NCBI RefSeq assembly: GCF_900116425.1
Contig: NZ_FPAS01000002.1
Span: 390,537 to 454,536, forward strand
Reading direction: 5' to 3'
From: Lishizhenia tianjinensis
Lineage (GTDB): Bacteria > Bacteroidota > Bacteroidia > Flavobacteriales_D > Crocinitomicaceae
DNA length: 64,000 nucleotides
Within the stretch, counting starts at the first letter, position 1; every line of letters begins with the position of its first letter. Shown here piece after piece: positions 6,743-49,821 of the stretch. The notes below the pieces were generated by a model. That model ran no database searches. It was not told where the DNA came from and was given only the letters and a program-made list of their open reading frames with translations. The position numbers and the translations under genes are program-made.

Positions 6743-6790
6743 GATTCAAAGATTCAAGAATTCAAGGATTCAAATTTGATTGATTTGATG
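6743..6790. repeat. ATTCAANN octamer array
   Basis: Consecutive 8-base units read GATTCAAA, GATTCAAG, AATTCAAG and GATTCAAA, then decay into TTTGATTG and ATTTGATG while the register holds. The array lies between the prs promoter and the terminator of the saccharopine-dehydrogenase-like gene. Similar arrays occur at 27029, 32681 and 40243. Confidence 0.8.
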
Positions 6791-24418: not shown

Positions 24419-24441
24419 TTTCATCTATAGTTTGAAATACT

Positions 24442-24480
24442 AAAAAGCCGTTATCCTTAATTGGGTAACGGCTTTTTTTT
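24442..24480. terminator. Bidirectional terminator, fumC and T9SS cargo gene
   Basis: A 15-base stem (AAAAAGCCGTTA with TAACGGCTTTTT plus inner pairs) has T-runs on both strands. It serves fumC on the plus strand and the convergent gene at 24516 on the minus strand. Confidence 0.85.
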
Positions 24481-24485
24481 AGAGG

Positions 24486-24517
24486 TCTAGATATCTAGAG
24501 TTCTAGATTGCTAGACT
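24486..24517. repeat. TCTAGNNN octamer array
   Basis: Four exact 8-base units read TCTAGATA, TCTAGAGT, TCTAGATT and GCTAGACT. They fill the space between the terminator hairpin and the stop codon of the convergent gene, overlapping that stop codon by two bases. Confidence 0.8.
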
Positions 24518-26051
24518 ATTTCTTGAAAATGCGTTCTGTATAAGTACTCCCCGATTTGGTGCTAACTTTTATCAGATAGATTCCTTGGTTTAAAGTTTCC
24601 ATATTTATGGTGCTTTGAGTAGTTTTTAAAACTTCTTTGCCCTGTATATCCATGACTTGAATGTCTTGAATTACCTCTTGGTTTTCTAGGCTAATGTTTA
24701 CAAAGTTTTCCGTTGGGTTGGGGTAGATGTAAATTCCACTTGTGGACATTTGTTCTTGTACGGATAAAATATTATTGTAATCGTTAAACCTCATGTATCC
24801 ATACCAGGGGTTATTTTTTACAATATATGCATAGGTGTACGTATTATTTCCCGTTACCAATAAGTGCGGGGGACTATGAACCGAGTTGATGAGGCAAAGA
24901 CTTTGGTAGGAAAGGTCTCCTAACGTATCTAAAAAGGCCATCCAAATATTGTTATAGTTCGTGTGTATGGTTCTGTCTCCACTTGCTGGACCATTGGTAT
25001 GACATGCGAGTACTACCTTGTTGTGAATAACCTCTAAATTTAATAGTCCGTCTGGTCCATCTGATCCAATTGAATTTTCCAGTAGCAGGTTTCCGTTGGT
25101 GTCTAACTGAACATACCACATGTCATTAGGCCCACTTATATCTTCTGATTTTAAGGCATTACTTGGAGAGGTGGTGGTCATAGCCACATGAATTTTATTG
25201 TTGAATCCGAGTATTTTAAAATCGTCTTCTAAAACAGATCCTCCTAAATTTTTATCCCATAGCAGATTCCCATCTTTATCAAGCTTAGTTACCCAAGCAT
25301 TTCTGTATCCTAAACTAGGCTCTGTTTTATCAAACCCTACTCCGGAGTCTGTGCCTGAGATGATGTAAACACTTTCACCGACAAGTTCGGCCTCTGCTAA
25401 ACTTTCGTATTGATCGGCTTTGAGTGTATTTTCCCAAATGATTCCACCGAGATAATTCACTCTCAATGCCCATATATCTGAGAATTCAGAATCTTCTGAT
25501 TTTTGAGCGTTTGCTGGAGAGTCAGAGATAAGAACAAGAAGAAGGTCTCCATTTGGAAATTCTTTCAAGGCATGAATTTTATCCACACCACTTCCTCCGT
25601 AAACATATTGATCTATTATGTTCAAATTCGTATCTAATTTTACTAACACACCACACCATTCACCTTTGCGGGTGCTGGTTAAGTTTCCACCTATGCTGGT
25701 GTTTTTAACATTGAGAGCAACAAATACATGATTGGTATTGGTGGAATAGATAAGATCTACAAATTCTTCATCTTCACTTGCTCCAATTGTAATGTTGGTG
25801 ATATTGTTATAGATCTGGTTCGATTTAATAATCCACGCATCATATCCACCGTAAGAATCTTGAAGTTTTGTTGGACTTTGGTCTCCATCATTGTTGCAAC
25901 CCACGAAATGGAAATTGTTGAATTCTCTGAGTTTAGGATGAGTTGAATTACTTTCGTAAGGGGTTAAGGTATTCCAAAAATCGAGGTAATCGTGTTGAGA
26001 GAAAATACCAAAACTCAAAGTGATTAATAGTGTGGTTAAAATTAACTTCAT
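24516..26051 (-). CDS. Secreted protein with T9SS type A sorting domain
   Basis: The 511-residue protein has a signal peptide (about 1-18), repeated beta-propeller-like blocks (TKLDKDGNLLWDKNLGGSVLEDD, VQLDTNGNLLLENSIGS), and a C-terminal type IX sorting domain of about 75 residues. That domain includes IYPNPTENFVNISL, VMDIQGKEVLKT and GIYLIKVSTKSG. It should cross the outer membrane through the T9SS and be released or anchored at the surface. The repeats resemble those of large Bacteroidota surface proteins without known catalytic activity. It stands alone. Confidence 0.85.
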   Translation of the reverse strand: MKLILTTLLITLSFGIFSQHDYLDFWNTLTPYESNSTHPKLREFNNFHFVGCNNDGDQSPTKLQDSYGGYDAWIIKSNQIYNNITNITIGASEDEEFVDLIYSTNTNHVFVALNVKNTSIGGNLTSTRKGEWCGVLVKLDTNLNIIDQYVYGGSGVDKIHALKEFPNGDLLLVLISDSPANAQKSEDSEFSDIWALRVNYLGGIIWENTLKADQYESLAEAELVGESVYIISGTDSGVGFDKTEPSLGYRNAWVTKLDKDGNLLWDKNLGGSVLEDDFKILGFNNKIHVAMTTTSPSNALKSEDISGPNDMWYVQLDTNGNLLLENSIGSDGPDGLLNLEVIHNKVVLACHTNGPASGDRTIHTNYNNIWMAFLDTLGDLSYQSLCLINSVHSPPHLLVTGNNTYTYAYIVKNNPWYGYMRFNDYNNILSVQEQMSTSGIYIYPNPTENFVNISLENQEVIQDIQVMDIQGKEVLKTTQSTINMETLNQGIYLIKVSTKSGSTYTERIFKK

Positions 26052-27028: not shown

Positions 27029-27109
27029 ATTCAAAGATTCAAAGATTTAATGATTCAAAGATTCAAGGATTCAACAATTCAAAGATTTGATGGATTTGAA
27101 AATTTGAAG
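27029..27109. repeat. ATTCAANN octamer array (ten units)
   Basis: Units follow in an 8-base register: ATTCAAAG, ATTCAAAG, ATTTAATG, ATTCAAAG, ATTCAAGG, ATTCAACA, ATTCAAAG and ATTTGATG. After one extra base come ATTTGAAA and ATTTGAAG. The last two bases vary and the core drifts to ATTTGA. The array lies upstream of tonB and 31 bases from a TCTAGNNN array. Confidence 0.8.
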
Positions 27110-27140: not shown

Positions 27141-27172
27141 TCTAGAAATCTAGACCTCTAGCTATCTAAAAA
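27141..27172. repeat. TCTAGNNN octamer array
   Basis: Four exact 8-base units read TCTAGAAA, TCTAGACC, TCTAGCTA and TCTAAAAA. The array abuts the distal side of the terminator of the two-component operon. Confidence 0.8.
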
Positions 27173-27201
27173 AAACTGCTCCCGAAATGAAAGCAGTTTT
27201 T
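27165..27201 (-). terminator. Terminator of the two-component operon
   Basis: The stem AAAAACTGCT/AGCAGTTTTT (27171-27180, 27192-27201) is followed by a T-run on the minus strand, 20 bases after the regulator stop codon. Confidence 0.85.
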
Positions 27202-40169: not shown

Positions 40170-40242
40170 AATTTAATTCAGAATGGAGAATTAAGAAAGA
40201 TGAATTATTTAAGGAGAGGGAAATTGGGTTACAGTTTTTTGA

Positions 40243-40306
40243 ATTCAACAATTCAATGATTTAACGATTCAATGATTCAACAATTCAATGATTTGAAGAT
40301 TTGAGG
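40243..40306. repeat. ATTCAANN octamer array (eight exact units)
   Basis: Eight units keep exact 8-base spacing: ATTCAACA, ATTCAATG, ATTTAACG, ATTCAATG, ATTCAACA, ATTCAATG, ATTTGAAG and ATTTGAGG. The core ATTCAA or ATTTRA is stable and the last two bases vary. It lies in the 278-base spacer between the polyprenyl synthase promoter and the end of the porG-like gene. Confidence 0.85.
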
Positions 40307-42121: not shown

Positions 42122-42168
42122 ATAAAAAAAGGACAAACGCAATGTTCATCCTTTCAATATCTATTATT
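42122..42168 (-). terminator. Terminator of nadK; right copy of flanking direct repeat
   Basis: The arms AAAGGACAAAC / GTTCATCCTTT (42128-42138, 42144-42154) have the same two mismatched pairs as the left copy at 41391-41440, with a T-run on the minus strand. The copies are 731 bases apart and bracket the TA genes and their operator. Confidence 0.8.
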
Positions 42169-42222
42169 TCTACAGTCTAACTTTCCAGAAATTTAAACTC
42201 TAGTTGTCTAGCTATCTAACCT
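42160..42222. repeat. TCTA(G)NNN array, partly degenerate
   Basis: The last three units are exact octamers (TCTAGTTG, TCTAGCTA, TCTAACCT at 42199-42222). Upstream, TCTA-like units continue with 7-9 base spacing from 42160. The array fills the space between the nadK stop codon and its terminator. Confidence 0.65.
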
Positions 42223-47584: not shown

Positions 47585-48259
47585 ATGGCATACATTCTTC
47601 ATTTAGAGACGGCAACTAAGGTTTGTTCTGTGGCTTTATCCTACAACGGAAAGCTTATAGAGGTAATAGAAACGGAAGAAGACGGATACACGCACGCCGA
47701 AAATCTGACGGTTTTTGTGGAGCAAGTTTTAAGTAATGCAAAGTTGACCCCAAAAAATTTGGCAGCGGTGTCGGTAACGAGCGGACCAGGTTCTTACACA
47801 GGTTTAAGGATAGGTGTTTCTACCGCCAAAGGATTGTGTTATGCCTTAAATATTCCCTTGATAGCTGTGAATGCTCTTGAGGCGATTGCTTACCAAGCAA
47901 AAGAGCTTCATCCCACAAAAAACATTTGTGCTTTAATAGATGCGCGTAGAATGGAAGTTTTTTCTGCGATTTATGATACGAAGATGGCCGAGTTGAAGGC
48001 TATATCTGCAGATGTAATTGAAGAGGGAACCTATGCTGAATTTGAAAATCTACTCATTTGTGGAGATGGTGCTGAAAAATTGCAAGAAATCTGGAAGGAT
48101 AGGAACTTGGAATTTGATGTGAATATTAAATCTTCTGCAAAAGGACATGTACAAAAAGCCTTTGAAAAATTCCAAACCGAGCAATTCGAAGACGTGGCTT
48201 ATTTCGAACCGTTTTACTTGAAAGATTTTGTGGCCTTAAAATCGAAGAAGAGAGTGTAA
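47585..48259 (+). CDS. tsaB: tRNA threonylcarbamoyladenosine biosynthesis protein TsaB
   Basis: The 224-residue protein has the ASKHA-type start ILHLETATKVCSVAL and the TsaB hallmark SVTSGPGSYTGLRIGVSTAKGLCYAL. It works with TsaD and TsaE to make the t6A base next to the anticodon of tRNAs reading ANN codons. The C-terminus is degenerate relative to TsaD, as usual. Its partners are not in the window. Confidence 0.93.
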   Translation: MAYILHLETATKVCSVALSYNGKLIEVIETEEDGYTHAENLTVFVEQVLSNAKLTPKNLAAVSVTSGPGSYTGLRIGVSTAKGLCYALNIPLIAVNALEAIAYQAKELHPTKNICALIDARRMEVFSAIYDTKMAELKAISADVIEEGTYAEFENLLICGDGAEKLQEIWKDRNLEFDVNIKSSAKGHVQKAFEKFQTEQFEDVAYFEPFYLKDFVALKSKKRV

Positions 48260-48265
48260 TTACTT

Positions 48266-48313
48266 TCTAATTGTCTAGGAATCTAGAACTCTAGCAGTCT
48301 AGATATCTATCTT
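48266..48313. repeat. TCTAGNNN octamer array (six exact units)
   Basis: Six units keep exact 8-base spacing: TCTAATTG, TCTAGGAA, TCTAGAAC, TCTAGCAG, TCTAGATA and TCTATCTT. The array starts 6 bases after the tsaB stop and ends on the stop codon of the convergent small lipoprotein gene. Confidence 0.85.
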
Positions 48314-48431
48314 ATATTTTCCCCATAGGTGTTGACTGACCTTTACGTCCGTCACATTTTTTAGAACTTGCACATTGGGTAATGATTAATCCGAGTACGA
48401 GGAAGAGGAGTATGATGCCTAGTTTTTTCAT
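48312..48431 (-). CDS. Small lipoprotein, 39 residues
   Basis: An intact frame reads MKKLGIILLFLVLGLIITQC followed by ASSKKCDGRKGQSTPMGKI and TAA. It has a full lipoprotein signal with the lipobox Cys at position 20 and only 19 mature residues. The sequence CDGRKGQSTPMG recalls tiny lipoproteins seen in other Flavobacteriia, from memory. Function is unknown. From here to the terminator at 48602 I see no further gene. Confidence 0.65.
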   Translation of the reverse strand: MKKLGIILLFLVLGLIITQCASSKKCDGRKGQSTPMGKI

Positions 48432-48601
48432 GGTTTAGATTTTAGTATGAAACGCGATTAAATTCTTTGGTTACAAGATTTACGTCTTGAAATGGATAAC
48501 GGATTTATTCGAGTAGATATTTCAGGAGTTCTAGAAAAAGTATGGAGTATTGACAAGATAAGTTTTGAATTTGGTGTTTAATTATTTGAAATTGATCTCA
48601 C

Positions 48602-48631
48602 AAAAAAAGGATGAACATAATGCTCATCCTT
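48602..48631 (-). terminator. Terminator of hdc-like gene, GGATGAAC family
   Basis: The arms AAGGATGAAC and GCTCATCCTT (48607-48616, 48622-48631) enclose a 5-base loop and a T-run follows on the minus strand. Confidence 0.85.
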
Positions 48632-48632
48632 C

Positions 48633-48672
48633 TCTAAATATCTAACCGTCTAAAAGTCTTTGCTTCTCTGAA
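48633..48672. repeat. TCTANNNN octamer array
   Basis: Three clear units (TCTAAATA, TCTAACCG, TCTAAAAG), then the decayed TCTTTGCT and TCTCTGAA, keep 8-base spacing. They occupy the whole interval between the terminator hairpin and the stop codon at 48673. Confidence 0.7.
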
Positions 48673-49821
48673 TTAAAAATCAAAAGCGTATTCTTCTTCT
48701 TCGTTTTGATCGGCCATCGTTAAATCTTCTATGAATTCATCGATTTGCGCTTTACTTACGTTAGGCATACAAATGATATGAGAAATATCTCCCTCAGTAG
48801 CCAATTGCCATTTGTTTTTTACAGAATTTGGTGTTTTGGGCATAACCACTGTAATACTGTTCGGATTTCTCCAAGCATTTACACCTATTTCTTGTAGTCG
48901 TTGCTCGCAGTAACGCGCAGTTTCTAAACTTTTCTCGTAACGTGCTTTGAGTCCATCTACCCCCATTTTCTTAATGGCATACCACAAGAATAGTGGTCCG
49001 TGACCATTACGCGACCCCGTAATCGTTGTGTCTAAAGAACCAATGTAGGCAATGCCATTTGAGATTCTATCTCGAATGGATTTTTTGGCAACGATAACTC
49101 CACAAGGCATAGGTGAACCAATGAATTTGTGACCAGAGATAGAAATACTATCTATACCATCTTTGAAATCGAAAGCAGGTTTTGGGTTCATGAAGGCACC
49201 ATAACTTCCAGAAAGCGCTCCGTCTACATGGATGTAATGATCGTGAATAGCCAAATTCTTTAAGATAGATTTAATTCTGCCTACATCGTCTTTAGCTTCT
49301 TTCATGGTTGTACCAAAAGTTGAAAGCACAATAACCGGTTTGTGGCGGTTCATTTTTACAGTGTTTTCAAAATCTTCGTAATCCATTTCTCCATTCTCAG
49401 TTGAACGAATCACGATGCTTGGTATGTTTAATAAGTGTAAGTTTTTCTTTACGGAGTAGTGGGTAGACTCTGAGTAGTATACCATTCCCTTCGGGTACAT
49501 TTCACGGGCTAGATATAGTCCGTATAAATTACTCTCCGAACCACCATTGGTAACATATCCCCAGTAATCTTTAGGGTTAGCTCTGAATAATTTCGCAAAA
49601 AAAGCGACAACCTCACGTTCTAATTCGTGGGTTTGCACTTTATAGGTACAATCCTCAAAAGGATCGCCAAGGTTGTTGATAGGGTATTGTAAAAAGTTAA
49701 GGATTTCAGAGTAATCGAAATCTTTAGAAACGGGGTACCCCAAGAAAGAATCTCTGGCACCTTTTACGGCGATTTCTAATTGCTCTAATTTTTGTTTGTC
49801 CTTCTCACTAAAACCTGACAT
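48673..49821 (-). CDS. PLP-dependent decarboxylase, probably histidine decarboxylase
   Basis: The 382-residue group II decarboxylase carries SGHKFIGSPMPCGV with the PLP-binding lysine at residue 232. As I recall, this is the same number as in Morganella histidine decarboxylase, whose length is also nearly equal. Other fitting parts are GYVTNGGSESNLYGLYLAREMYP, HVDGALSGSYGAFM and GSLDTTITGSRNGHGPLFLWYAI. The expected product is histamine plus CO2. Related serine decarboxylases are close in sequence, so the substrate needs proof. No histidine/histamine antiporter or siderophore genes are adjacent. Confidence 0.82.
   Translation of the reverse strand: MSGFSEKDKQKLEQLEIAVKGARDSFLGYPVSKDFDYSEILNFLQYPINNLGDPFEDCTYKVQTHELEREVVAFFAKLFRANPKDYWGYVTNGGSESNLYGLYLAREMYPKGMVYYSESTHYSVKKNLHLLNIPSIVIRSTENGEMDYEDFENTVKMNRHKPVIVLSTFGTTMKEAKDDVGRIKSILKNLAIHDHYIHVDGALSGSYGAFMNPKPAFDFKDGIDSISISGHKFIGSPMPCGVIVAKKSIRDRISNGIAYIGSLDTTITGSRNGHGPLFLWYAIKKMGVDGLKARYEKSLETARYCEQRLQEIGVNAWRNPNSITVVMPKTPNSVKNKWQLATEGDISHIICMPNVSKAQIDEFIEDLTMADQNEEEEYAFDF

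Follow-up and report, generated by a model that had tools for sequence, protein, structure and literature searches.

Short-unit tandem arrays in intergenic DNA and their association with PF05635 genes

Octamer arrays in the window and in the genome

The array at positions 48266-48313 of the window (the whole 64-kb stretch of DNA that was analysed; G+C 36-39%) consists of six TCTARNNN units on the plus strand, TCTAATTG TCTAGGAA TCTAGAAC TCTAGCAG TCTAGATA TCTATCTT. A gap of six bases separates it from the stop codon of a plus-strand ORF (47585-48259), and its end is overlapped by the stop codon of a 39-residue ORF on the minus strand (48312-48431), which we judged by eye to be lipoprotein-like, with a signal-peptide-like start and a Cys. 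The original prediction described an exact 8-base register, a fixed TCTAG core and last three bases that differ in every unit. The register holds across all six units and the last three bases are unlike in each (TTG, GAA, AAC, CAG, ATA and CTT); of the core, all six units have TCTA and just four have TCTAG, unit 1 having TCTAA and unit 6 TCTAT.

Of the related arrays predicted elsewhere in the window, three stand and one does not in full. The TCTAGNNN array at 24480-24515 (minus strand; five TCTA) reads on both strands, has convergent ORFs on either side and adjoins a terminator-like hairpin seen by eye. The TCTARNNN array at 27141-27172 (plus strand) reads TCTAGAAA TCTAGACC TCTAGCTA TCTAAAAA, with three TCTAG units and a fourth TCTA in 27141-27168. 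The TCTAANNN array at 48633-48660 (plus strand) reads TCTAAATA TCTAACCG TCTAAAAG TCTT, with three TCTAA units at 48633-48656, and is flanked by another such hairpin (by eye) and by the end of a minus-strand ORF (48673-49821). The array at 42160-42218 (plus strand), on the other hand, is decayed and shifted in register, two intact TCTAG units being left at 42199-42214. By eye, terminator-like hairpins with A- and T-runs adjoin TCTA arrays in 24440-24520, 27141-27200 and 48590-48660. Arrays of a second family, ATTCAANR (TTGAATYN on the minus strand), lie on the plus strand at 6743-6774 and, followed by ATTTGA units, at 27029-27087 and 40242-40293.

The pattern TCTAGNNNTCTAGNNNTCTAG (three successive TCTAGNNN units) has six matches in the window, some of which are one place on both strands, with 0 expected from 100 shuffles. 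The expected genome-wide excess over a control was borne out, with 42 matches in the whole genome (3.56 Mb in 13 contigs) versus 0 for the backward pattern; among 59 genomes (this one and 58 relatives, none of them from the same genus) the pattern is confined to this genome. In 854,536 bases sampled from the genome, 21 arrays have at least three TCTAR cores (two places being counted on both strands), versus 4 in the reversed sequence. The proposed count of intergenic versus coding arrays gave none of the 21 mainly in predicted coding sequence, coding status being assigned by our own ORF rule and not by curated annotation. The second family, TTGAATYN/ATTCAANR, is larger and has the 8-base period too: the same sample holds 52 arrays of at least three units (0 in reversed sequence), one of which is coding, and the threefold pattern has 140 matches in this genome and 5 in three other genomes of the 59 searched. 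By eye, TTGAATYN arrays often adjoin longer dispersed repeats, e.g., at C8:38826, 72550, 75566 and 82168, which include elements resembling CTCGAGCGAAGCCGAG and an AGCCTA...TTTGGTTCGTTT stretch that is shared.

A blind self-similarity scan of the sample found intergenic arrays at lag 7 (16), lag 8 (38) and lag 9 (10), two at lag 11, one at lag 13 and none at lags 5, 6 and 10. All lag-8 arrays belong to the TCTA or TTGAATYN family, with no others, under a loose family rule that asks for three in-register occurrences of AAT or TCTA.

Fixed cores and free bases

Mismatches were counted against each array's own consensus. For 300 TTGAATYN units of the blind lag-8 arrays, their numbers in columns one to eight are 20, 45, 76, 10, 11, 16, 105 and 147 (chi-square p 3e-69), and for 27 units of four blind TCTA arrays 0, 0, 1, 0, 9, 10, 14 and 12. 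Column 8 of TTGAATYN takes all four bases (95, 92, 58 and 55), column 7 mostly C or T, and the variation in columns 2 and 3 consists mostly of transitions. Since the substitutions are crowded into fixed columns, evenly spread decay of identical repeats is refuted, and the restriction of change to particular columns points to constraint on the core rather than to error-prone extension. Error-prone extension, which the original prediction had set beside selection on the core, is not supported, and no reverse transcriptase of family RVT_1 was found in the genome.

The arrays had also been held not to be a plain slippage microsatellite, and this is supported by the concentration of mismatches in particular columns and by neighbouring TCTAG units, which agree at the variable bases less often than shuffled units (0.308 vs 0.378, z -2.4, 24 arrays). 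Near-identical neighbours with an even spread over the columns, as in such a microsatellite, were not found. A looser form of this explanation, in which 7-9-nt arrays made by slippage are tolerated between genes and drift as degenerate microsatellites, is unlikely but deserves some weight. Adjacent TTGAATYN units are slightly more alike than shuffled ones (z +3.8 at lag 1), nine identical TTGAATCC units form part of one TTGAATYN array and four identical TCTAGCCA units part of one TCTAG array (L211), and published short satellites, among them satellites built of 6-8-nt units, have been explained in this way (PMC6749651 and PMC4692102, both used here in part). Against it are the column-restricted change, the anti-correlation of TCTAG neighbours as a set and the possession of one core by many loci. 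An AAA unit with other units around it occurs in many TCTAG arrays. An alternation of unit types (AAR vs CNR, with a 16-base super-period) was considered and rejected as weak (z -2.3 at lag 1, +1.0 at lag 2).

A fixed core might be kept as the docking site of a sequence-specific DNA-binding protein, as in the met boxes, which are tandem 8-bp sites bound by MetJ (consensus AGACGTCT, in tandem TCTAGACG). The exact 8-bp register, the palindromic CTAG core and the free bases between would suit such a role. We consider it improbable, because MetJ was not found in this genome with a search whose E. coli control was positive, and because 8 of the 21 TCTAR arrays occupy gaps between convergent genes, where promoters do not lie (such gaps are 58 of the 378 intergenic regions). 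The arrays could also be six-frame translation stops, as CTAG contains TAG whichever strand is read and repetition every 8 bases brings it into all frames. By reading, this is true of the TCTAG array, and TTGAAT holds TGA on one strand; but TTGAATYN units with C in column 2 (39 of 287) lack a stop on that strand, and in the 9-nt arrays of like look the stops would fall in one frame, so that this function is most improbable.

Reverse complements of the array cores are in mild excess in the flanks of the 129 blind arrays (17 vs a null mean of 7.9 and maximum of 16). Inside these arrays the excess is clear (18 vs 1.5), largely because CTAG-type cores are nearly self-complementary. Folding of the 21 TCTAR arrays is somewhat better than that of shuffles (mean z -1.0, two of 21 below -2), while hairpins as a general trait of solo arrays, i.e., those away from PF05635 genes (see below), were rejected, solo TTGAATYN arrays folding no better than shuffles (mean z +0.4).

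Arrays beside PF05635 genes

Four successive TCTAGNNN units were found in at least 116 stretches of named genomes belonging to many phyla. Among 80 listed stretches, the units are uniform in some (Vibrio maerlii with CTC, Rhodobacteraceae with TTT) and variable in RUG12186, Kiritimatiellae, Paludibacteraceae and Bacteroidales. In thirteen genomes picked from these matches, CTAGNNNNx4 occurs 9 to 625 times per strand, with 0 for the backward control. The 625 matches are those of Vibrio maerlii, where mostly uniform TCTAGCTC arrays lie on several scaffolds (L078, L120, L121, L140 and others); its CTAG octamer repeat is of a different kind, without a TIGR02436 match. Long arrays of another uniform octamer, TCTAGTTT, are common to the alphaproteobacterial Aliiroseovarius, Thalassobius, a Rhodobacteraceae bin and Robiginitomaculum (L084, L101, L102, L105, L109, L123 and L130). 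In RUG12186 (L082, 5239-5340), one array has CTAG every 9 bases and spacers that vary; long CTAG arrays with the 8-base period lie some 830 bases away.

A wide spread of CTAGNNNNx4 in Bacteroidota was rejected, as only two of 392 evenly drawn genomes have it (this one and G300). Nor is the CTAG period of 8 special everywhere: viral contigs gave 24 stretches for CTAG/8, 44 for GATC/8, 73 for CTAG/7 and at least 119 for CTAG/9, and the spacers are variable in 3 of 25, 17 of 47 and 16 of 75 arrays for the first three and, among 80 stretches listed, in 26 of 93 arrays for CTAG/9. Stretches of six array-bearing genomes, some picked for holding CTAG arrays, contain many more degenerate arrays of 7, 8 and 9 nt with other cores, CTAG thus being just one of many; the intergenic share of these arrays is 28 of 36, 22 of 26 and 4 of 11, respectively.

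An all-versus-all comparison of the 116 listed array loci revealed that in four genomes the CTAG arrays adjoin one common gene: L096 (RUG11534), L135 (Kiritimatiellae RGIG4394), L171 (Verrucomicrobia UBA7008) and L082 (RUG12186). The four-base spacers of these loci are unrelated while CTAG and the period are kept, a conservation that is partly built in because the loci were found by pattern. Of the four, only L135 and L082 yielded an intact ORF, L171 being cut off by the contig end and L096 having no reported ORF. The product of L135 is a weak match to PF05635 (23S rRNA-intervening sequence protein), at 24 bits against a cut-off of 33.8.

The present genome has seven clear TIGR02436 members, and the three scanned with Pfam match PF05635 with E values of 7e-22 to 6e-34; a profile search of the 64-kb window gave no TIGR02436 match. 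At one of the seven, C9:177216 (L516), TCTAG arrays lie on both sides of the gene (C9:177145-177173 on the minus and 177538-177566 on the plus strand), and the right-hand array provides the stop codon with its first TCTAG. Another core is present in the 7-9-nt arrays that adjoin five of the remaining six genes: at a threshold lower than that of the test below, arrays flank L515, L518 and L519 on either side and L517 and L521 on a single side, and L520 has none. Solved relatives of the C9:177216 protein are 2gsc, the structure of a Xanthomonas protein (E 3e-17), and 2rld (E 2e-4). Its weak bAvd match (24.2 bits, below the cut-off of 40) would favour error-prone copying of the arrays by a retroelement, e.g., a diversity-generating retroelement, whose Avd is related to PF05635. 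This reading is scarcely credible: unlike the present genome, in which a model search did not find an RVT_1 reverse transcriptase, diversity-generating retroelements have such an enzyme, and their mutagenesis is adenine-specific, at odds with the conserved A positions within the cores.

TIGR02436 is found in 50 of the 59 Flavobacteriales genomes. From these, 36 loci (7 from this genome and 29 from other genomes) were cut out, ranked by score and not by arrays, and 33 of them, including the seven genes of this genome, were tested, three being dropped for short or masked flanks. An array was called where 16 of 24 positions in an 80-bp flank matched at a lag of 6-9, and 548 genes of eight relatives served as background. 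Either flank has an array in 25 of 33 PF05635 genes versus 20 of 548 background genes (Fisher p 7e-25), and both flanks in 12 of 33 versus 0 of 548 (Fisher p 1e-16). Of the 66 flanks, 26 have an array at lag 7, 8 at lag 8, 2 at lag 9 and 1 at lag 6, and none has one at lag 5 or 10-12. Among 712 genes of the present, array-rich genome taken as a control, 10.8% have an array in either flank and 0.7% in both; in a within-locus control of 10 genes only, one has an array in either flank. Such an excess in relatives with an almost array-free background is evidence against the slippage explanation, by which PF05635 genes merely lie in tolerant DNA. In one relative (G005), the sole TTGAATYNx3 array (two matches; C16:333507-333536) lies 66 bases from a TIGR02436 match (C16:333118-333441); the TTGAATYNx3 matches in G021, which is without a TIGR02436 gene, and in G029 are not beside TIGR02436.

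Of 12 array-bearing genomes in the test of other phyla, 10 have a TIGR02436 match, above the cut-off in nine. There was no match in Vibrio maerlii and Schleiferiaceae FCJ.15, whose listed arrays are uniform or nearly so, and Bacteroidales G068, with variable CTAG arrays, gave only one match, below the cut-off. These genomes were picked for having CTAG arrays, and 20 of their 30 loci were used as full-length or nearly so, the ten omitted being partial or weak. Arrays were found in either flank of 17 of 20 and in both flanks of 8 of 20, and the two flanks are akin in inverted orientation in 13 of 20 and in direct orientation in 3 of 20. By eye, only L561 has TCTAG units at its own PF05635 gene. 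The gene is carried by 88 of 118 Bacteroidota genomes, so that mere co-occurrence per genome means little. The link between gene and arrays is well supported. Full-text searches found no open-licence paper that, by title or abstract, ties short-unit arrays to PF05635 genes, and the tie apparently has not been described before.

Inverted kinship of the flanks was found at 11 of 33 Flavobacteriales loci versus 3 of 548 background genes (Fisher p 1e-12). With 100-bp flanks and a score of at least 22, kinship is inverted in 18 of 33 and direct in 9 of 33, versus 6 of 545 and 16 of 545 in the background (90-bp flanks). The mean inverted and direct scores in Flavobacteriales, 23.8 and 22.4, do not differ significantly (p 0.25), and inversion of the two arms is a tendency. 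At 11 of 33 loci the energy calculated for an RNA duplex between the two flanks lies under the 5th percentile of the values for mismatched pairs, and in folds of the whole element at seven loci the flanks pair by 15-35 base pairs in six, and by only 3 base pairs at the TCTAG locus L516. Neighbouring solo arrays within 700 bp (2 TCTAR and 4 TTGAAT pairs) gave no excess of inverted pairs.

PF05635 genes usually lie in sense orientation between same-strand genes: both neighbours are on one strand at 27 of the 31 loci with both neighbours known (five of the 36 lack one), versus 393 of 709 gene triples of this genome. One pair of neighbours is common to nine loci in nine genera and another to five. 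Family models, applied to one locus each, identified the neighbours as sdhA|sdhB at L515 and fadB|fadA at L516, and placed L536 upstream of sufC, positions that are used in several genera. These loci have protein genes as neighbours and are not within 23S rRNA. On the tree, proteins from the sdhA|sdhB junction group together (4 changes vs 8.2 shuffled, 1 of 500), so this junction looks largely inherited, and its array cores vary from genus to genus by eye; the fadB|fadA group does not cluster. An in-frame stop is present in several PF05635 copies of other genomes.

Most arrays in the sample of this genome have no PF05635 gene nearby. Among 53 blind arrays away from PF05635 genes, 48 are closer to the flanks of this genome's own PF05635 genes than to the 29 other loci (mean 10.0 and maximum 46 in 5000 shuffled choices of seven loci), a test that is partly circular since arrays of one genome are alike anyway. 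The best flank is that of L516 for TCTAG arrays, of L521 or L519 for most TTGAATYN arrays, and of L515, L517 or L518 for 7-nt arrays. The window's solo arrays may originate as stray arms. In six relatives without the gene, 501 kb held no 7-9-nt array at a strict threshold and one at a looser one. Solo arrays were also absent from 200 kb of two relatives that have 8 and 9 PF05635 genes (G004 and G037); possession of the gene is thus not enough to produce them.

A proposed element and the known systems

We favour, with modest confidence, the interpretation that the TCTAGNNN arrays are stray, gene-less arms of an intervening-sequence-like element family. A complete element would consist of a small PF05635/TIGR02436 gene and a short-unit array on one or both sides, the units being mostly of 7, 8 or 9 nt with a fixed core and free bases. 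The gene product would be a four-helix-bundle "23S rRNA-intervening sequence protein", a relative of the Avd of diversity-generating retroelements. In the transcript, the two arms may pair via their cores, as do the ends of 23S rRNA intervening sequences, and by the same analogy the PF05635 protein or RNase III may act on the RNA of the paired arms. The core would be kept because it pairs or is recognised, leaving the remaining bases free, and solo arrays would be copied arms or their remains, scattered over the genome in a burst.

A wider proposal, which we put forward as possible and tentative, is that PF05635 genes and paired arrays form one cross-phylum class of intervening sequences between operon genes, of which the 23S rRNA intervening sequence would be the rRNA-dwelling member; the protein would recognise the core in RNA, the arrays would turn over while arm pairing is kept, and in some genomes loose arms would have given rise to great numbers of solo arrays. 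If true, this would also explain several puzzling published heptamer families. The tie of arrays to the gene provides a candidate nucleic-acid target for the PF05635 protein and a candidate owner for the arrays, and leads us to propose that mobile or domesticated elements of a new kind lie within core metabolic operons such as sdhA-sdhB.

Among known systems, each taken here from part of the cited account, S23p ORFs are found in 23S rRNA intervening sequences, whose complementary ends are cut by RNase III (PMC4990558). These have an S23p ORF in sense between complementary ends inside a host transcript; the PF05635 loci resemble them in the sense orientation of the ORF, a PF05635/TIGR02436 ORF being present at loci such as C9:177216, and their flanks are akin in inverted orientation at some loci and in direct orientation at others. 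The 23S rRNA intervening sequences lie within rRNA and have one 28-bp stem in the species described (PMC4990558), whereas the PF05635 loci lie between protein genes, have short-unit arrays and are inverted only in part. Avd is a four-helix-bundle protein homologous to PF05635 (PMC10053308), and in a Flavobacterium a "four helix bundle protein" is listed with guanylate kinase on one side and nicotinate-nucleotide adenylyltransferase on the other (PMC5524665).

The original prediction that no named repeat class fits was too strong, since intergenic arrays with fixed and free positions have been published (GGGNATC, PMC4692102; TAACTGA, PMC4679880). The GGGNATC heptamers of Xanthomonas and Nostoc, which have been read as G-quadruplexes (PMC4692102), resemble the window arrays as dispersed short-unit repeats over-represented in non-coding DNA, with a fixed core and a free position, some of them inverted. 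They differ in being 7 nt long and G-rich, the window arrays being 8 nt long without G-tracts; in a draw of 369 genomes of the class to which Vibrio maerlii belongs, GGGNATC was found in two, and the parts of the published account covered here hold no link to PF05635. The TAACTGA direct repeats of Beggiatoaceae, Cyanobacteria and Bacteroidetes, proposed to be regulator-binding sites, are likewise patchy across phyla and intergenic, with a period that is not a multiple of three (PMC4679880). Unlike the window arrays, they are one exact heptamer and lie mostly just upstream of start codons in the main genome described; other heptamers also occur in some Bacteroidetes intergenic regions (PMC4679880). 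By reading, TCTARNNN and TTGAATYN are units different from both GGGNATC and TAACTGA. With many short-unit tandem arrays that have a common core and are nearly all intergenic, the window repeats are dispersed degenerate intergenic repeats, an octameric variant of an already known kind of repeat.
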